Source: Prevotellamassilia timonensis | GTDB taxonomy: Bacteria > Bacteroidota > Bacteroidia > Bacteroidales > Bacteroidaceae | Length of the DNA stretch: 64,000 nt | Assembly (NCBI RefSeq): GCF_900106785.1 | Contig: NZ_LT629843.1 | Coordinates: 206,291 to 270,290 of the forward strand | Direction of reading: 5' to 3' | Part shown: piece by piece, positions 6,605 to 58,308 of the stretch | How the letters are laid out: each line of letters begins with the position of its first letter | Position numbering within the stretch: the stretch's first letter is position 1 | Made by a program: the position numbers and the translations under genes | The notes under the pieces: model-generated | Told to the model about the DNA's origin: nothing | Databases searched by the model: none | Seen by the model: the letters and a program-made list of their open reading frames with translations, nothing else

Positions 6605-6735
6605 CACCTCTAATGGGGGCGACGCGTCCCGCGTCGGGATAGAGATAAGAGTTAAACACGAACGCTACTACTGCTAATAATAGCTGCATATTTTCCCGAC
6701 GCGAGACGCGTCGCCCCCATTAGAGGTAGCGTTCG
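6605..6735. repeat. Family A paired REP-like element
   Basis: Left arm TAATGGGGGCGACGCG starts at 6611 and the inverted right arm ends at 6722. Each arm forms its own 7-bp stem with a 3-base loop (CGACGCG-AGA-CGCGTCG on the right). The right arm is followed by one 13-bp unit (GGTAGCGTT type). Confidence 0.85.
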
Positions 6736-8611: not shown

Positions 8612-8764
8612 ATCCCGACGCGGGACGCGTCGCCCCCATTAGAGGTAGCGTTTTGTGATTGCGTTTGGTGATTGTGCTTGACGCTTGTGTTTGGAGATTG
8701 CGTTTAGAGGTAGCGTTTTGTGATTGCGTTTGATGATTGTGCTTAGAGACAGCGTTTGGTACTA
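8612..8764. repeat. Family A single arm plus nine 13-bp units
   Basis: A single REP stem-loop (CCCGACGCGGGACGCGTCGC) is followed from 8640 by nine contiguous 13-bp units such as TTAGAGGTAGCGT and TTTGTGATTGCGT. The array runs right up to the stop codon of the lipoprotein gene. Confidence 0.85.
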
Positions 8765-12397: not shown

Positions 12398-12590
12398 GAC
12401 GCAAGCACTAAACGTAAGCACTAAACGCTACCTCTAATGGGGGCGACGCGTCTCGCGTCGGGCATTAAGGCAAAGGCTTACAGATAGACGTGTAATTCGT
12501 GCTGTCAGTGAGTTTATGTTTAGTGTATAAACAGTGCAATTTTCCGACGCGAGACGCGTCGCCCCCATTAGTGCTTGCGTTTTCTATCAG
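12398..12590. repeat. Family A paired element with left 13-bp units
   Basis: Three 13-bp units (ACGCAAGCACTAA, ACGTAAGCACTAA, ACGCTACCTCTAA) lead into the left REP arm at 12435. A middle segment carries a GCTTACAG-type hairpin, and the right arm ends at 12570 followed by one unit. Confidence 0.85.
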
Positions 12591-17865: not shown

Positions 17866-18118
17866 CACCAAACGCAAGCACTAATGGGGGCGACGCGTCT
17901 CGCGTCGGTTTTCTGCAGCCGCGTCTCGCGTCAGTTTTTCTGCAGCCGCGTCCCGCGGAATTAAAGCAAAGGCTCACAGACAAGCATGTGATTAGTGCTG
18001 TCTGCGAGCCTTTATTCAGTGTGTTAACATTGCATTTTCCCGACGCGAGACGCGTCGCCCCCATTAGTGGTTGCATTTGGTGCTTGCGTTTGGTGTTTGC
18101 GTTTGGTGCTTGCGTTTA
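17866..18118. repeat. Family A paired element reaching the mltD stop codon
   Basis: Left 13-bp units lead to the REP arm at 17882. The middle carries three copies of a CTGCAGCCGCGTC-type segment and an AAGGCTCACAGACA/TGTCTGCGAGCCTT hairpin. The right arm ends at 18066 and is followed by four 13-bp units (TTAGTGGTTGCAT, TTGGTGCTTGCGT and others). The next TTA is the mltD stop codon. Confidence 0.85.
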
Positions 18119-34557: not shown

Positions 34558-34845
34558 AAGCACAAAACGCAAGCACCAAACGCTACCTCTAAACGCAATC
34601 TCTAAACGCTATCACAAAACGCAAGCACTAAACGCTACCACTAAACGCAATCTCTAAACGCTACCACTAAACGCTACCACTAATGGGGGCGACGCGTCTC
34701 GCGTCGGGAAAGTTGCAACGTTCATACACTAAATAAAGGCTCACTGACAGCAGTAATTACACTCCTGTCTGTGAGCCTTTGACTTGATTTCCGACGCGGG
34801 ACGCGTCGCCCCCATTAGAGGTAGCGTTTAGTGATAGCGTTGCGT
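34558..34845. repeat. Family A element with ten 13-bp units
   Basis: Ten contiguous 13-bp units from about 34554 to 34680 fit ACGCNANCNCNAA, for example ACGCAAGCACCAA, ACGCTACCTCTAA and ACGCAATCTCTAA. The REP arm starts at 34681. The middle carries an AAAGGCTCACTGACAGC...GTGAGCCTTT hairpin. The right arm ends at 34817, followed by two units that touch the topoisomerase stop codon. Confidence 0.9.
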
Positions 34846-45524: not shown

Positions 45525-45718
45525 TTCTATCCCGACGCGAGACGCGTCGCCCCCATTAGTGGTAGCGTTTCGTGGTAGCGTCTGGTGGTAGCGCTTGGTG
45601 CTTGAAGAAACGCAAGCTCTAATGGGGGCGACGCGTCCCGCGTCGGGGAAAGATGCAGCTGTTATTAAGTAGAGTGCGTATATCCTTTCTCTATCCCGGC
45701 GAGACCCGTCGCCCCCTC
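45525..45718. repeat. Family A arms in head-to-head order
   Basis: A right-type arm (45532-45559) is followed by three or four 13-bp units (TTAGTGGTAGCGT and variants). At GCTTGAAGAAACGCAAGC these meet units leading to a left arm at 45620. An eroded right arm (CCCGGCGAGACCCGTCGCCC) ends the block. Confidence 0.8.
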
Positions 45719-46500: not shown

Positions 46501-46752
46501 GCGCTAACACTAAGCGCTACCACTAAACGCTATCACCAAACGCTACCTCTAATGGGGGCGACGCGTCTCGCGTCGGGAACTAAGACAAAGGCTCACAGAC
46601 AAGCATGTAATTACTGCTGTCTGTGAGCCTTTGTTTAGTGTATGAACATTGCAATTTTCCCGACGCGAGACGCGTCGCCCCCATTAGAGTTAGCGTTTGG
46701 TGGTAGCGTTTAGAGCTAGCGTTTAGTGGTAGCGCTTAGCAGTCGCACTCTG
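46501..46752. repeat. Family A paired element with units on both sides
   Basis: Four left units (GCGCTAACACTAA to ACGCTACCTCTAA) lead to the REP arm at 46551. A middle hairpin GGCTCACAGACAAGC/GCTGTCTGTGAGCC follows. The right arm ends at 46686 and five right units follow (TTAGAGTTAGCGT to TTAGCAGTCGCAC). Confidence 0.88.
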
Positions 46753-52870: not shown

Positions 52871-53374
52871 TTACTTCTTGCTGGCGGCAATGAGTTCCTT
52901 CACCTTGTCGATGAGGTGCTGTTCGCCACCCTCAGTGTAACCACTGCGGCTTTCGGCTATCTTGCCATTGCCGTCAATCACAAATACGTGGGGAATCATG
53001 TTCACGCCCATGGCACGGCGGAAGTCAGAGTTAGGGTCAAGCAGCACTTGGTACTCCCAGCCTGCAGCATCGACCATGGGTTTTACCTTCTGTGCGTTCT
53101 GTGCCTCGTCAATGCTCACAGCCACCACACGCACACCGGTTTCGTCCTGCCAGTCGGCATAGACCTCGTTTATGGCTTTAAGCTCGCGGTTGCAGGGCTT
53201 GCACCATGTGGCAAAGAAACTGATGATGAAGGGTTTGCCATCGTTGCTGAGCGTTGCAGTATCAATGGTTTTACCGTTAATATCCTTCAGTTTGACAGAA
53301 GGCAGCTGCGCAAAGGCGCTTGCCGTTACCCCTACAAAAAGGAGCAAGGCCAACAATAGCTTAGTTACTTTCAT
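52871..53374 (-). CDS. TlpA-like periplasmic thioredoxin
   Basis: The MKVTKLLLALLLF start (53374) gives 167 residues with a signal peptide ending AFAQ. The thioredoxin fold has FFATWCKPCNRELKAINEVY (CxxC), VRVVAVSIDEAQ and a cis-Pro loop in NMIPHVFVID. Such proteins reduce disulfides or transfer electrons in the periplasm. It is the first gene of a five-gene co-oriented cluster with two Omp28-like proteins. A TAATTTTG box at 53446-53453 lies about 70 bp upstream. An in-frame Met at 53437 is less likely. Confidence 0.9.
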   Translation of the reverse strand: MKVTKLLLALLLFVGVTASAFAQLPSVKLKDINGKTIDTATLSNDGKPFIISFFATWCKPCNRELKAINEVYADWQDETGVRVVAVSIDEAQNAQKVKPMVDAAGWEYQVLLDPNSDFRRAMGVNMIPHVFVIDGNGKIAESRSGYTEGGEQHLIDKVKELIAASKK

Positions 53375-53445
53375 TTTGGTTGAATTTTGGTTGATGCCGT
53401 GGCAAGTAGACACTTGTCGGGGCATGATTGATTGCATTATCGCGG

Positions 53446-53453
53446 CAAAATTA
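53446..53453 (-). promoter_or_regulatory. Promoter -7 box of the thioredoxin/Omp28 cluster
   Basis: Minus-strand TAATTTTG upstream of the TlpA-like gene. From 53454 to 53700 I see no other feature. Confidence 0.45.
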
Positions 53454-53740
53454 CGCCTTTTAGTTGTATTGGCAAATACTATGGCATTGAAAAAAGCTGA
53501 AACACAACGTTTAAGGGTATTTATGGGGTCATGTAAAGTGTTTTTGTGCGGTTTTGTCTACACCTTATTATATTATACACCGCTTTAGCTCTGGTAATTT
53601 ATTTTTTTGCCGTTTTGCTTGCATCTTGCACTTTTGCATAACAAAAGCTTGATAATCAACGGATAAAAATGTGTAGGCAGCCTCTAATTTTACATGCACT
53701 ACCATCTGCACGCATCAATTACGGCAGTGCGTTTTTTCAG

Positions 53741-53816
53741 CATAGGGAGGGCGATTACAGAGCATAGGGAGGGCGAATTTTCATTTGCTCCGACATTATT
53801 TTCGGGCTCCCTATGC
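53741..53816 (-). repeat. Family F 76-bp element, copy 2
   Basis: Reverse-complement match to 8137-8212, with three ATAGGGAG/CTCCCTAT boxes. Confidence 0.7.
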
Positions 53817-53855
53817 CGGTCACTCCCTACCTGCATGACGTATACATGCTTGCCC

Positions 53856-53921
53856 GTGCAAGGTTGTGCAGGGAGTGCAGGTTGGAGTGCAGGTAGTGCA
53901 AGAAGTGCAGGCAGTGCAGGC
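53856..53921. repeat. AGTGCAGGN array, about 9-bp units
   Basis: AGTGCAGGT, AGTGCAAGA, AGTGCAGGC and AGTGCAGGC follow each other, preceded by looser copies. Confidence 0.6.
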
Positions 53922-54055
53922 AAAAGTGTAAGCAGATTTCAGCATTACCTACACTACGTAACTTTATGAGTATCAACACATTACTATTAAAGAGTGCAAG
54001 ATGCAAGTAAAATAGCAAAAAAGGTGTGTAGGGGAGTTATAGGAGCACAAAGCGC

Positions 54056-54130
54056 AAGCACTAATGGAGGCGACGCGTTTGGTGGTAGCGTTTTGATGAT
54101 AGCGTTTGATGGCGGCGTTTGGTGTTTGAA
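54056..54130. repeat. Truncated family A arm with right-type units
   Basis: A left arm start (TAATGGAGGCGACGCG) runs straight into 13-bp-like units without the stem-loop partner. Confidence 0.6.
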
Positions 54131-54325
54131 GAAACGCAAGCTCTAATGGGGGCGACGCGTCTCGCGTCGGGAATAGTGCAGCTGTTATTTAGTAGAGCTT
54201 GTATTCTTTTCTTTCATTTTCCCGACGCGAGACGCGTCGCCCCCATTAGAGCTTGCGTTTTGAGCTAGCGTTTTGATGATAGCGTTTTATGCTAGCGTTT
54301 GGTGGTGGCGCTTAGCGCTTGAAGA
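54130..54325. repeat. Family A complete element downstream of RAYT (distal)
   Basis: REP arms at 54144 and ending 54248 enclose GTGCAGCTGTTATTTAGTAG. The right side continues with four or five 13-bp units, ending at the GCGCTTGAAGAAACGC joint. Confidence 0.88.
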
Positions 54326-54482
54326 AACGCAAGCACTAATGGGGGCGACGCGTCTCGCGTCGGGGAAAGATACAGCTGTTATTTAGTAGAGCTTGTTTGC
54401 TTTTCTTTCATTTTCCCGACGCGAGACGCGTCGCCCCCATTAGAGCTTGCGTTTAGTGGTAGCGTTTTGATGATAGCGTTTA
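54325..54482. repeat. Family A complete element abutting the RAYT stop
   Basis: REP arms at 54337 and ending 54442 enclose the same middle as its neighbour. The last right-type unit leads into the TTA stop codon of the RAYT gene. Confidence 0.88.
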
Positions 54483-55100
54483 TCGCAGAATGGCATAATT
54501 AGACATTGGCTTGAAGTTGGGATAACCGTCTGTCAGATATAAGCTGTATTCATTGCTATGTAATCCGCGTGGATTGCGTGCTATGTAGTCGACTACTTTC
54601 CAATAATGGTGTTCATTGCGAATTATACGGTCAAATGACTCTGATTGCCATACTTTGCCATTGACATTGAGCAACTCGTTAAGTTTATGTGCAGTGTATG
54701 ATTTTAGTGAAGCTATTACAGACTGAATGCTAAAGTTATTGATAGTTTGCAGTATTAGATGTACGTGATTAGGCATTATCACATAATCGTGTATGTGATA
54801 ACGGCTATGGTCAAAATGGTGAAACGCGTGTTCTACAAGTTTCCTCGCCTCTACTATTTTAAGCATGCAACAACCAAGGCATCTGTCAAGCAGACTGTTG
54901 ATTGTTTGCAACTTCAACCTTTCTAATTCATTTGCCTCTTCAGTAGTCAGTACATTACCATGTGCTTTTTGCCATGCGCTAACAGTTCTTTTGTACTCCA
55001 TGGTGGCATCTGCGGGCATTGAATCTGCCAATCTGAATGTAACGAAGTATATTTTACCCTCTATATGCCAGTGAGGCAGGTCGCCACGTGTTATGTACAT
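54480..55100 (-). CDS. REP-associated tyrosine transposase (RAYT, Y1/IS200-like)
   Basis: RAYTs are single-copy relatives of IS200/IS605 transposases that bind and nick REP hairpins. The 206-residue protein starts MYITRGDLPHWHIEGKIYFVTFRL, has the metal-binding HUH motif in YVIMPNHVHLIL (H112, H114) and VWQSESFDRIIRNEHHYWKVVDYIARNP, with the likely catalytic Tyr172. The fold appears complete. It is flanked by family A elements on both sides (two complete plus one broken 3', three complete 5'), the arrangement expected for a RAYT and its REPs. The stop codon lies inside a 13-bp repeat unit. Activity has not been shown. Confidence 0.9.
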   Translation of the reverse strand: MYITRGDLPHWHIEGKIYFVTFRLADSMPADATMEYKRTVSAWQKAHGNVLTTEEANELERLKLQTINSLLDRCLGCCMLKIVEARKLVEHAFHHFDHSRYHIHDYVIMPNHVHLILQTINNFSIQSVIASLKSYTAHKLNELLNVNGKVWQSESFDRIIRNEHHYWKVVDYIARNPRGLHSNEYSLYLTDGYPNFKPMSNYAILR

Positions 55101-55119
55101 AGGTATTATATTTTAAGAT

Positions 55120-55305
55120 TAAAAGTGACGCAAGCACAAAACGCTAGCACTAAACGCAAGCTCTAATGGGGGCGACGCGTCTCGCGTCGGGGATAATGCA
55201 GCTGTTATTTAGTAGAACTTGTATTCTTTTCTTTCATTTTCCCGACGCGAGACGCGTCGCCCCCACTAGAGCTTGCGTTTTGTGGTAGCGTTTGGTGGCG
55301 TTTGG
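55120..55305. repeat. Family A complete element upstream of RAYT (proximal)
   Basis: Left units ACGCAAGCACAAA, ACGCTAGCACTAA, ACGCAAGCTCTAA lead to the REP arm at 55164. The right arm ends at 55268 (one change, CCCACTAGAG). Confidence 0.88.
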
Positions 55306-55470
55306 TGCTTGAAGAAACGCTAGCACTAATGGGGGCGACGCGTCTCGCGTCGGAGATAGTGCAGCTGTTATTTAGTAGAGTTTGTATTCTTTTCTTTCAT
55401 TTTCCCGACGCGAGACGCGTCGCCCCCATTAGAGCTTGCGTTTTGTGGTAGCGTTTGGCGGCGTTTGGTG
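55305..55470. repeat. Family A complete element upstream of RAYT (middle)
   Basis: Starts at the GCTTGAAGAAACGC joint. REP arms at 55327 and ending 55431, with the TTATTTAGTAGAGTTTG middle. Confidence 0.88.
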
Positions 55471-55650
55471 CTTGAAGAAACGCAAGCACTAATGGGGGCG
55501 ACGCGTCTCGCGTCGGGAATAGCGCAGCTGTTATTTAGTAGAGCTTGTTTTGTATTCTTTTCTTTCATTTTCCCGACGCGAGACGCGTCGCCCCCATTAG
55601 AGCTAGCGTTTTGAGGTGGCGTTTTGTGGTAGCACTTTGCGCTTGACGCT
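55470..55650. repeat. Family A complete element upstream of RAYT (distal)
   Basis: REP arms at 55490 and ending 55599, then right-type units down to the stop codon of the RluA-like gene. Confidence 0.88.
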
Positions 55651-55652
55651 GG

Positions 55653-56534
55653 CTATTTTTGCTGTGCTGTACCCAGTCTGAAGCCCTTGGGCACAGGTGT
55701 TTCAAAGCGGAGCGGCTCACCCGTCATGGGGTGGTAGAAGTTGAGACGGTAGGCGTGCAAGGCCAGGCGGCCTATGGGGTCGTCGCCATTGCCATACTTT
55801 ATATCGCCGCACACGGGGTGTCCGAGGTCCTGCATGTGTACACGTATCTGGTTTTTGCGTCCCGTTTCGAGCTTGAGCTCTACAAGCGAGTGCTTGCCGT
55901 CAGTGCGCAACACGCGGTAGTGCGTCAGGGCATACTTTCCGCCATTGTCCACGGGCGAAGAGTAGGTGAAGTATGCCTTGTTGTCCTTGAGCCAGCTCTC
56001 TACACTGCCCTGCTTTTGTGGCAGCTCGCCCGACACAAGGGCCAGATAACGGCGGTCGGTCACAATGTCGCGCCAGTTGTGCTCCAATATCTGCTCGGCC
56101 TGCAATGTTTTGGCATACACCAGTAAGCCCGAGGTGTCGCGGTCGAGACGGTGCACCACGTGGGCGGTACACTTTTGGTGTGTGCGGTGAAAGTAGTAGT
56201 CGAGCACCTGCTTCACACAAAAGGCGTGGTGCGAGGTGGCCATTGACAATATGCCGGGGGCCTTTTCTATCACAATTATCTGAGGGTCTTCATACACAAT
56301 CTTTACAAACTTTGATTGCAGTTCGCCCTTGGGCTTGCGCTTTGATATTTCGACTACCTGGCCGGGACGCAGCTCGAGGTCGAACTGTCGTGTGTTTTTG
56401 CGGTCGACGCGCACACCGCCTCCGCTCAGTATGGCTTTGGCGCGGCTGCGGCTCACACCGTTGAGGGCGTGTTCTATAAACTGGAGCAGCTGCATGGGCT
56501 GCTTTACGTGGTATGTGGTATATTGCAGTTGCAT
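55653..56534 (-). CDS. RluA/RluD-family pseudouridine synthase
   Basis: The enzyme converts uridine to pseudouridine in rRNA or tRNA. I start it at MQLQYTTYHV (56534), giving 293 residues. The open frame continues upstream to 57056, but that part overlaps porX in another frame and is low-complexity. An S4 domain (QLLQFIEHALNGVSRSRAKAILSGGGVRVD) is followed by the catalytic HVVHRLDRDTSGLLVYAKT with its Asp, and by GRKNQIRVHMQDLGHPVCGDIKYG. The target uridine is unknown. Confidence 0.9.
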   Translation of the reverse strand: MQLQYTTYHVKQPMQLLQFIEHALNGVSRSRAKAILSGGGVRVDRKNTRQFDLELRPGQVVEISKRKPKGELQSKFVKIVYEDPQIIVIEKAPGILSMATSHHAFCVKQVLDYYFHRTHQKCTAHVVHRLDRDTSGLLVYAKTLQAEQILEHNWRDIVTDRRYLALVSGELPQKQGSVESWLKDNKAYFTYSSPVDNGGKYALTHYRVLRTDGKHSLVELKLETGRKNQIRVHMQDLGHPVCGDIKYGNGDDPIGRLALHAYRLNFYHPMTGEPLRFETPVPKGFRLGTAQQK

Positions 56535-56659: not shown

Positions 56660-58207
56660 TTATCTTCGTTTTGGCCTCAGCGTGATGAGCGGCACCAGCA
56701 TCTCCTCCATGGATATGCCGCCATGCTGGAAGGTGTCGGTGTAGTACTGCACGTAGTGGTTGTAGTTGTTGGGGTAAGCAAAGAAGCGGTTGCCCGTGGC
56801 AAATATGTACGCTGTGCTGAGGTTGGGCTGTGGCAGGAGGAGGGCCTTTGGCTCGCGCACCTCGTACACGTCCTTGGCGTTGTACGACAGGTTGCGGCCT
56901 AACTTGTAGCGCAGGTTGGTGTTGACGTTGCGGTCGCCCACCACTTTGGAGGGTTGGTCCACCTTGATGCTGCCGTGGTCGGTGGTGATGATGAGGTCGT
57001 AGTCGAGTTCGGCCAGCTGTCTGAAGAGTTGGCGTATGGGGGTGTGCTTGAACCACGATTGGGTGATGCCGCGGTAGGCACCCTCGCTGCCGGCCAACTC
57101 GCGCACCATGCGGCTTTCGGTGCGTGCATGGCTCAGTATGTCGATAAAGTTGATTACGAGCACGTTGAGGGGCGTGGCGGCAAACTGCTTTATTTGCGTC
57201 AGCAACTGACTCACGGCTTGCGAGTCGTTGAGTTTGTGGTAGGTAAACTGCTCGCGACGGCGGAAGCGCTCGAGCTGGTGGGCTATCAATGCCTTCTCGT
57301 TAAGGTTTTTGCCTTCGTCCTCCTCCTCGTCCACCCACAGGTCGGGATACATCTGCTTTATTTGCAGCGGCATGAGTCCGGCAAATATGGCATTGCGCGC
57401 ATACTGTGTGGCTGTGGGCAGTATGGTGTAATAGAGGTCTTCGTCGATGTCGAAGTCGTCGGCCAGCTCGCCTGATATGGCGCGCCATTGGTCGTAGCGC
57501 AGGTTGTCGAGCACGAGCAGGAACACCTTGCGGCCGGCTGTGAGGCGCGGGAATATGCAGCGCTTGAACAGGTCGGGACTCATGAGCGGACGCTCGTCGG
57601 GGTGTTGCACCCAATGCGCGTAATGCCGTTTTATAAACTTGGCAAAGGTGGCATTGGCCTCTTCCTTCTGCATGCGCAGCATGTCGTCCATGGCGCTGCC
57701 CGTCGAGGCCAGTTCGAGCTCCCAATGCACCAGCCGGCGGTAGAGTTCCTTCCACTCGTCGGGGTTCAGCTGTTCGCTCAGTTGCATGCCGATGCGCCCG
57801 AAGTCCTGGCGGTAGCCAGTTTGTGTCACCTCCTGCACAATCTCGCGTTGGTGTATATTCTTTTTGAGCGTGAGCAGTATCTGCTTGGGGTTGACGGGCT
57901 TTATCAGGTAGTCGGCAATTTTTGAGCCGATGGCCTGGTCCATGATGTCCTCCTCCTCGTTCTTGGTCACCATCACCACGGGCAGGTTGGGCGCGATGTC
58001 CTTCAGCTGCATGAGCGTTTCGAGCCCCGAGAGTCCGGGCATGTTCTCGTCGAGCAGCACCAAGTCGAAGCGCTGCTCGCGGCAAAGGTCTATGGCGTCG
58101 GGGCCATTGCTGGCCGTCACCACCTCATAGTCTTTTTTCTGTAAAAAGATGATGTGGGCGCGGAGCATATCTATCTCGTCGTCCACCCAAAGCAAACGTG
58201 CGGTCAT
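56660..58207 (-). CDS. porX: PorX-like response regulator with PglZ domain
   Basis: PorX is the response regulator that controls type IX secretion genes in Bacteroidetes. Starting at MTARLLWVDDE (58207) gives 515 residues. The receiver domain has the acidic D9/D10, phospho-acceptor D53 (LLDENMPG) and a conserved Lys in LIKPVNP. The long C-terminal part is an alkaline-phosphatase-like PglZ domain (VFLLVLDNLRYDQW, NVLVINFIDILSHAR, DYDLIITTDHGSIKV), which hydrolyses nucleotides in PorX. No porY kinase is nearby. The presence of several proteins with sorting-like domains in the window fits this regulator. Confidence 0.92.
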   Translation of the reverse strand: MTARLLWVDDEIDMLRAHIIFLQKKDYEVVTASNGPDAIDLCREQRFDLVLLDENMPGLSGLETLMQLKDIAPNLPVVMVTKNEEEDIMDQAIGSKIADYLIKPVNPKQILLTLKKNIHQREIVQEVTQTGYRQDFGRIGMQLSEQLNPDEWKELYRRLVHWELELASTGSAMDDMLRMQKEEANATFAKFIKRHYAHWVQHPDERPLMSPDLFKRCIFPRLTAGRKVFLLVLDNLRYDQWRAISGELADDFDIDEDLYYTILPTATQYARNAIFAGLMPLQIKQMYPDLWVDEEEDEGKNLNEKALIAHQLERFRRREQFTYHKLNDSQAVSQLLTQIKQFAATPLNVLVINFIDILSHARTESRMVRELAGSEGAYRGITQSWFKHTPIRQLFRQLAELDYDLIITTDHGSIKVDQPSKVVGDRNVNTNLRYKLGRNLSYNAKDVYEVREPKALLLPQPNLSTAYIFATGNRFFAYPNNYNHYVQYYTDTFQHGGISMEEMLVPLITLRPKRR

Positions 58208-58308
58208 TGTGTGTGTGTATGATAAAAATGGACATTGGCGATGCTCGCCGTGCTCATAAATGTACAAATGTGCAAATGTGCACATCTGCACATTTGCACA
58301 TCAGCGCA

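Follow-up and report, generated by a model that had tools for sequence, protein, structure and literature searches.

The window, that is the whole stretch of 64,000 nucleotides analysed here, harbors at positions 54480-55100 the gene of a RAYT, the only one found in the whole genome (3.48 Mb). The gene is bordered by five complete inverted REP pairs and one broken copy, with two pairs and the broken copy on its 3' side and three pairs on its 5' side, exactly as described by a sequence-only reading of the same DNA. That reading had further listed dispersed copies at 6.6, 8.6, 12.4, 17.9, 34.7, 45.6 and 46.6 kb, each of which is present, and had taken the cluster for the densest group of these repeats, which is correct within the window, whereas groups of three to four elements are found elsewhere in the genome too (e.g. 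L051, L053, L055). At two mismatches or fewer, CGACGCGAGACGCGTCG is matched 23 times in the window compared to 0.01 matches expected. The features are the following, entries without a strand being unstranded:

54480-55100, reverse strand: RAYT, a TnpAREP-type Y1 HUH transposase of 206 amino acids (open reading frame, PF01797, catalytic residues)
54053-54078, forward strand: broken REP copy, one arm with the second half of the hairpin absent (read directly, ...ACTAATGGAGGCGACGCGTTTGG)
54132-54260 (complete pair at 54147-54245): REP pair 1, RAYT 3' side, 38-bp arms including the first 13-bp unit, 53-bp spacer
54260-54325: outward 13-bp units AGCGTTT... between pairs 1 and 2 (consensus AAACGCWASCWCT read toward the arm)
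54325-54454 (54340-54439): REP pair 2, RAYT 3' side (arm matches)
55152-55280 (55167-55265): REP pair 3, RAYT 5' side (arm matches)
55315-55443 (55330-55428): REP pair 4, RAYT 5' side (arm matches)
55478-55611 (55493-55596): REP pair 5, RAYT 5' side (arm matches)
6614-6719: dispersed REP pair (arm matches)
8616-8638, reverse strand: single REP arm, partner decayed (arm matches)
12438-12567: dispersed REP pair (arm matches)
17885-18063: dispersed REP pair with enlarged spacer (arm matches)
34684-34814: dispersed REP pair with class-B spacer (arm matches)
45533-45645: two REP arms facing the opposite way, 13-bp units between them (arm matches)
46553-46683: dispersed REP pair with class-B spacer (arm matches)

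Tracts similar to the 13-bp units at 54260-54325 border the remaining RAYT-flanking pairs as well.

The protein contains the HUH motif (H112-V-H114), W151, Tyr172 and N176-P177, and all six of the named residues H112, H114, W151, Tyr172, N176 and P177 are invariant in an alignment of nine sequences. Thus the HUH motif and the single tyrosine in a helix (YIxxNP) that define the Y1 HUH core are both in place. The Pfam model Y1_Tnp (PF01797) is matched with 32.2 bits at a cut-off of 23; the NCBIfam model REP_Tyr_transpos (NF047646) is matched with an E-value of 2.7e-19, yet its 69.5 bits fall below the cut-off of 80, which is a threshold of curation and not of mechanism. The first match in a profile search is E. 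coli TnpAREP complexed with a REP hairpin (PDB code 4er8), and the same entry is the top Foldseek match (E 3e-6) of an AlphaFold2 model with a mean pLDDT of 78. No RAYT match was found in a phage collection, and a plasmid collection yielded a single distant one (27% identity).

In two close species (L174, L175) the junction of trx and RluA contains no RAYT and the two genes are adjacent and divergent. In the window (52871-56534) the RAYT/REP cluster lies between trx and RluA and, as RluA has the opposite orientation to that in the close species, is located at a rearranged junction. A clean empty RAYT site was not found in these two species. Just 3' of the cluster, a tract rich in 'gtgcaggtagtgcaagaagtgcaggcagtgcagg' repeats extends from 53694 to 53960. 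The RluA gene is adjoined by a gene for PorX, the T9SS response regulator (56660-58291; NF052313, 818 bits), which places the organism in Bacteroidota.

Architecture of the REP element

The repeat was characterized in a sample of about 400 kb plus the window (462 kb), which contains 146 arms. Each arm reads TGGGGG-CGACGCG-TCY-CGCGTCG and consists of a GGGG foot and a hairpin of 7 bp whose loop has 3 nt; 131 of the 146 arms belong to one of two variants, TCT or TCC. Nearly all arms have GGGG as their tetranucleotide foot in contrast to the canonical GT[AG]G (PMC6006769), which is why the repeat is not filed as a canonical REP. Two main classes of spacer separate the facing arms, one of about 54 bp and the other of about 87 bp. 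Folded as DNA, the element forms a single long stem (-60.1 kcal/mol, z -15), because the arms including the innermost 13-bp unit are mutually complementary.

Outward of the arms the unit AAACGCWASCWCT is iterated. A second unit at a period of exactly 13 follows in 79 of 146 arms, compared to 0-2 arms at periods of 10-12 and 14-16, and 311 of 371 unit matches are located less than 300 nt from an arm, the remainder being near the chance rate. The claim that tandem 13-bp units flank each REP is confirmed as to the units; one unit, the innermost, is present at nearly every arm (135 of 146), and two or more are found at 54%. The tails would be part of the arm by their innermost unit and would have been lengthened outward by tandem duplication, probably via slippage or repeated strand transfer. 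In another genome, seven near-identical tandem units AAACGCTACAACT precede a REP arm (L191:1-130, IMGVR_UViG_2788500337_000004), and judged from this contig the tails resemble a variable-number tandem repeat in their length.

A second dispersed repeat of 430-850 bp, the 5' leader of a VapE-like gene, begins exactly where the 13-bp tails of REP elements stop. Eight copies were sampled (L061:7961-8800, L066:9752-10603, L055:15113-15569 and one each in L067, L051, L054, L058 and L065), seven beside arms and one beside a tail without arms. An intact VapE-like gene is located at L066:8684-10129.

The arms are 96.5% identical, compared to 75% for the spacers of the same elements, and are therefore held constant by selection or copying. 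Invariant arms together with drifting spacers fit an arm-selective copying process. Two inverted REPs recur as a unit, as known from REPINs, with 62-63 pairs and 22 single arms in the 462 kb. The greater conservation of pairs over singles expected of REPINs is absent from the REPs of this species: paired and single arms have 0.24 and 0.23 mismatches per arm, respectively (permutation p 0.52). Consequently, either the partners were lost recently, or single arms are processed too, or the arms are kept for another reason, and the observation speaks against a simple REPIN reading.

Age of the copies bears on whether the RAYT is a relic that formerly spread the REPs and is now kept for some other single-strand DNA job while the repeats are immobile. 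With identity down to about 75% among the spacers of one class, many copies must be old, and arms that are single, broken or tail-facing are frequent, with 22 among about 85 elements in the 462 kb. The RAYT reading frame and its catalytic residues are intact, however, and the arms are still nearly identical, which makes such a relic possible but rather doubtful. According to the reading preferred here, RAYT and REPs together look like a small self-spreading repeat system.

Genomic distribution and pairing with the RAYT

The genome contains 475-487 REP arms, which correspond to about 280 elements, of which some three quarters are paired, as extrapolated from the 462 kb or 13% of the genome. In the sample, 58 of 60 REP sites are intergenic or located at the edge of a stretch, although 82% of the sample is coding by crude ORF calling. 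Neither the 398 other genomes of the family nor 60 relatives from genus and order contain a match to the arm, the species being represented by one genome in these searches. Two contigs in a viral collection, both from IMG 2788500337, carry the arm, and this genome may belong to the same species as the window. The proposal that the repeat forms a REP system of its own lineage together with this RAYT had been tied to the count of copies in relatives, and the counts bear it out: in the 398 genomes, no relative lacking the RAYT was seen with the repeat at equal or greater abundance, the RAYT is the sole one of its genome, and the one-RAYT/one-REP correspondence recurs in relatives (see below).

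Siting of the elements permits another explanation, namely that the arms are bidirectional terminators or other hairpin signals of the host and that the RAYT gene landed in a cluster of them by chance. Besides the nearly exclusive intergenic location, this would account for the mild enrichment between convergent genes (17 of 56 REP sites compared to 36 of 189 gaps of at least 100 bp) and for single arms being conserved as much as paired ones. Against it, nine sites lie between divergent and 30 between tandem genes, the burst is confined to the species with no copies in relatives, relatives of the RAYT are regularly bounded by hairpins of their own, and no Rfam family matches the element; host signals are thus an improbable explanation. 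A function of the REPs as terminators only was rejected on account of the many sites between divergent or tandem genes.

Recombination or a different mobile element, such as the VapE-linked repeat or an IS, is to be considered as the cause of the spread as well, since seven of the eight sampled copies of the 430-850 bp leader directly abut REP tails and IS transposases are found near some copies. Numbers disagree, though, with about 280 REP elements facing about 60 copies (extrapolated) of the second repeat; it is lacking from the five pairs around the RAYT and from most others, and none of four independent RAYT/REP pairs in other genomes requires such a partner. A mover other than the RAYT is accordingly very improbable.

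These four pairs were found among relatives of the window genome. The genus is represented by 58 genomes, six of which contain a RAYT of this kind, and the family by 399, of which eight do (both counts including the window genome); the homologs share 31-42% identity with the RAYT of the window. Four of them are each bordered by a different hairpin repeat, which is exclusive to its own genome and present in 13-89 copies (G268, 15; G069, 89; G017, 13; G077, 22), with no copies in the other 14-15 genomes searched in each case. The REP of G268 (GGAGCCGACGTCTCCAGGCGTCGG) has the stem base CGACG/CGTCG in common with that of the window. In G017 all 13 copies are located within 3.3 kb around the RAYT, hence this REP is a population without dispersal. 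G077 is the closest species as judged by RluA (81%), and its REP is entirely different from that of the window. Across five genomes there is thus one REP to one RAYT, and each pair is exclusive; the same pattern has been reported in Proteobacteria (PMC2817692; summarised in PMC6006769).

The locus is therefore very likely a REPtron, in which the gene of a domesticated Y1 HUH transposase is located among the REPs that the enzyme recognizes and which have spread to about 280 intergenic sites. Arguments against it are the GGGG foot, the NCBIfam score below its cut-off and the equal conservation of single and paired arms. The TnpAREP proteins of E. coli, S. maltophilia and Marinomonas recognize a single-stranded hairpin, nick beside it by means of their tyrosine and perform strand transfer, where the foot acts in the choice of the cleavage site and the cleavage dinucleotide is CT or CA (PMC8266576). 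By analogy, processing of single-stranded REP hairpins by the RAYT is most likely in the window lineage. The enzyme would bind single-stranded DNA at the 7-bp hairpin CGACGCG-TCY-CGCGTCG and its GGGG foot (TGGGGGCGACGCGTCTCGCGTCG hairpin), Tyr172 would nick beside the hairpin, and the inverted pair would then be moved or copied as a unit. Since only arms that suit the enzyme would be passed on to new copies, the arms would stay invariant and the spacer would drift. In view of the GGGG foot, a cleavage dinucleotide other than CT or CA is predicted. This is a clean case in which the spread of the REP and the identity of the RAYT coincide with the species boundary, the foot being non-canonical and the 13-bp tails iterated, and the choice and copying of REPs by a RAYT thereby become testable outside Proteobacteria.

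RAYT homologs within other proteins

Named genomes were scanned with the RAYT alignment, the window genome's own records being excluded, and the nearest 80 loci were kept. They belong to Verrucomicrobia, Planctomycetes, Bacteroidota, Acidobacteria, Chloroflexi and others. Within about 500 nt of the RAYT homolog, recurrent hairpins are found in 33 of 75 loci compared to 1 of 71 control stretches. Out of the 80 nearest homologs and eight in-family relatives taken together, about 35 are located in frame inside other proteins, and in about 23 long open reading frames Pfam domains of the host are recognized on both sides of the RAYT:

LeuRS: L094, L096, L157
ValRS: L155
AlaRS: L140
CarB: L087, L107, L133
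MetH: L112
CCA/polyA polymerase: L089
XseA: L115
adenosine deaminase: L164
HsdR: L130, L152, L158
DinG-like helicase: L153
SNF2: L091
two-domain oxidoreductase: L150
FabZ: L106
MmeI-type R-M: L088 and, in-family, L042, L045, L047

Eco57I-type R-M and DUF1156 proteins carry an embedded RAYT too, and L040 is also among the in-frame loci. In the related MmeI-type R-M genes of L045, L042 and L047 the cassettes occupy two different insertion points, after HVHCVIIGFS in L045 and L042 and just before the NPPF motif in L047, with both sides translated.

Most of the embedded genes are bounded by REPs that belong to the translated frame. Of 20 cases looked at more closely, 16 have in-frame hairpins flanking the RAYT on either side; counted by side, hairpins are present in 85% compared to 14% of control segments. 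In L106 and L115 GTAG-footed pairs are read straight through. For the three LeuRS cases the embedded copy is the sole strong LeuRS match found in the genome; LeuRS with the insert would measure 1,064-1,218 aa at full length. Most of the genomes concerned are MAGs; L109 and L148 are titled as strains. On the RAYT tree, which is supported by SH-aLRT only and has 37 rows scored as embedded (L101 and L126 among them by ORF length without a recognized host domain), the embedded and free states require 19 changes, at least eight of which are forced by well-supported branches. The host gene can differ between closely related RAYTs, e.g. HsdR in L158 beside Eco57I in L095/L141. Judged from these sequences, embedding is a series of repeated independent events on the tree.

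In the published work nearest to this, TnpAY1 proteins of excessive length were discarded as fusions or annotation errors, and REPs on their own are described from within open reading frames (PMC6006769, PMC3733652). A description of whole RAYT cassettes translated in frame inside host proteins was not found in the literature. The RAYT of the window probably belongs to a broad clade that repeatedly lives as REP-bounded in-frame cassettes amid other proteins, among them restriction enzymes and essential proteins (leucyl-, valyl- and alanyl-tRNA synthetase, CarB, MetH, FabZ), with transposase and hairpins translated within the host protein, the REPtron of the window being the free-standing form. 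If true, this would be a protein-coding lifestyle of a mobile element comparable to that of inteins, except that no splicing domain was recognized. The in-frame cassettes form a lead of their own, stronger than the window locus, and they pose the sharper question, as a transposase and two palindromes are translated inside the only leucyl-tRNA synthetase of a cell: the cassette may be moving, be excised from the protein, or simply be tolerated in a loop.

Comparison with known REP systems

In the REPtrons and REPINs of E. coli (YafM/BIME), P. fluorescens and S. maltophilia (PMC2817692, PMC3116915, PMC8266576), a single-copy Y1 HUH gene is likewise flanked by inverted REPs on either side. Hundreds of dispersed, mostly paired intergenic REPs with conserved arms and a variable spacer are found there as here, and the pairing of RAYT and REP is genome-specific in both. 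The window system differs from them by its GGGG foot in place of GT[AG]G, by the single stem that both arms form over about 38-42 bp and by the outward iteration of 13-bp units; compared to the REPINs of P. fluorescens (PMC3116915), single arms are conserved as much as pairs. The RAYT itself is far diverged, with 43% identity to the best match among the named genomes scanned.

Among the TnpAY1 subclasses of Quentin et al. 2018 (PMC6006769), 2.4 seems to suit the RAYT best by the motifs NHVH, WQ and YIxxNP and by its taxonomic spread over Bacteroidetes and other phyla, placement being judged by motif only. NHVH (NH[IFV]H) and WQ match, and the tyrosine motif YIARNP differs in one position from YIxNNP. 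A GT[AG]G foot is expected for REPs of subclass 2.4 and is missing from the REP of the window, as it is from those of the Bacteroidetes subclass 2.6 (PMC6006769). REPs in frame within the tnpAREP gene have been reported for subclass 2.4 (PMC6006769).

REP dimers inside longer inverted repeats also occur as GTAG-15 in A. variabilis and CGTC-1 in H. neapolitanus (PMC3733652), whereas the enclosing sequence in the window consists of the iterated 13-bp unit in variable number (1-10). CGTC-tagged REPs have an unpaired CGTC at one end, a stem of 8-9 bp starting from A-T and a loop of 4-5 nt, in contrast to the 7-bp GC stem, 3-nt loop and GGGG foot found here. The embedded RAYT cassettes are reminiscent of intragenic REPs and Rickettsia palindromic elements (PMC3733652), which are palindromes in frame in protein genes; those insertions consist of palindromes alone (about 20-82 amino acids), while the cassettes comprise a whole transposase gene with its REPs. 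The REPtron of the window is thus of a type already known, and what is new is its species-confined REP family, which is unlike canonical REPs in its foot and its 13-bp tails.
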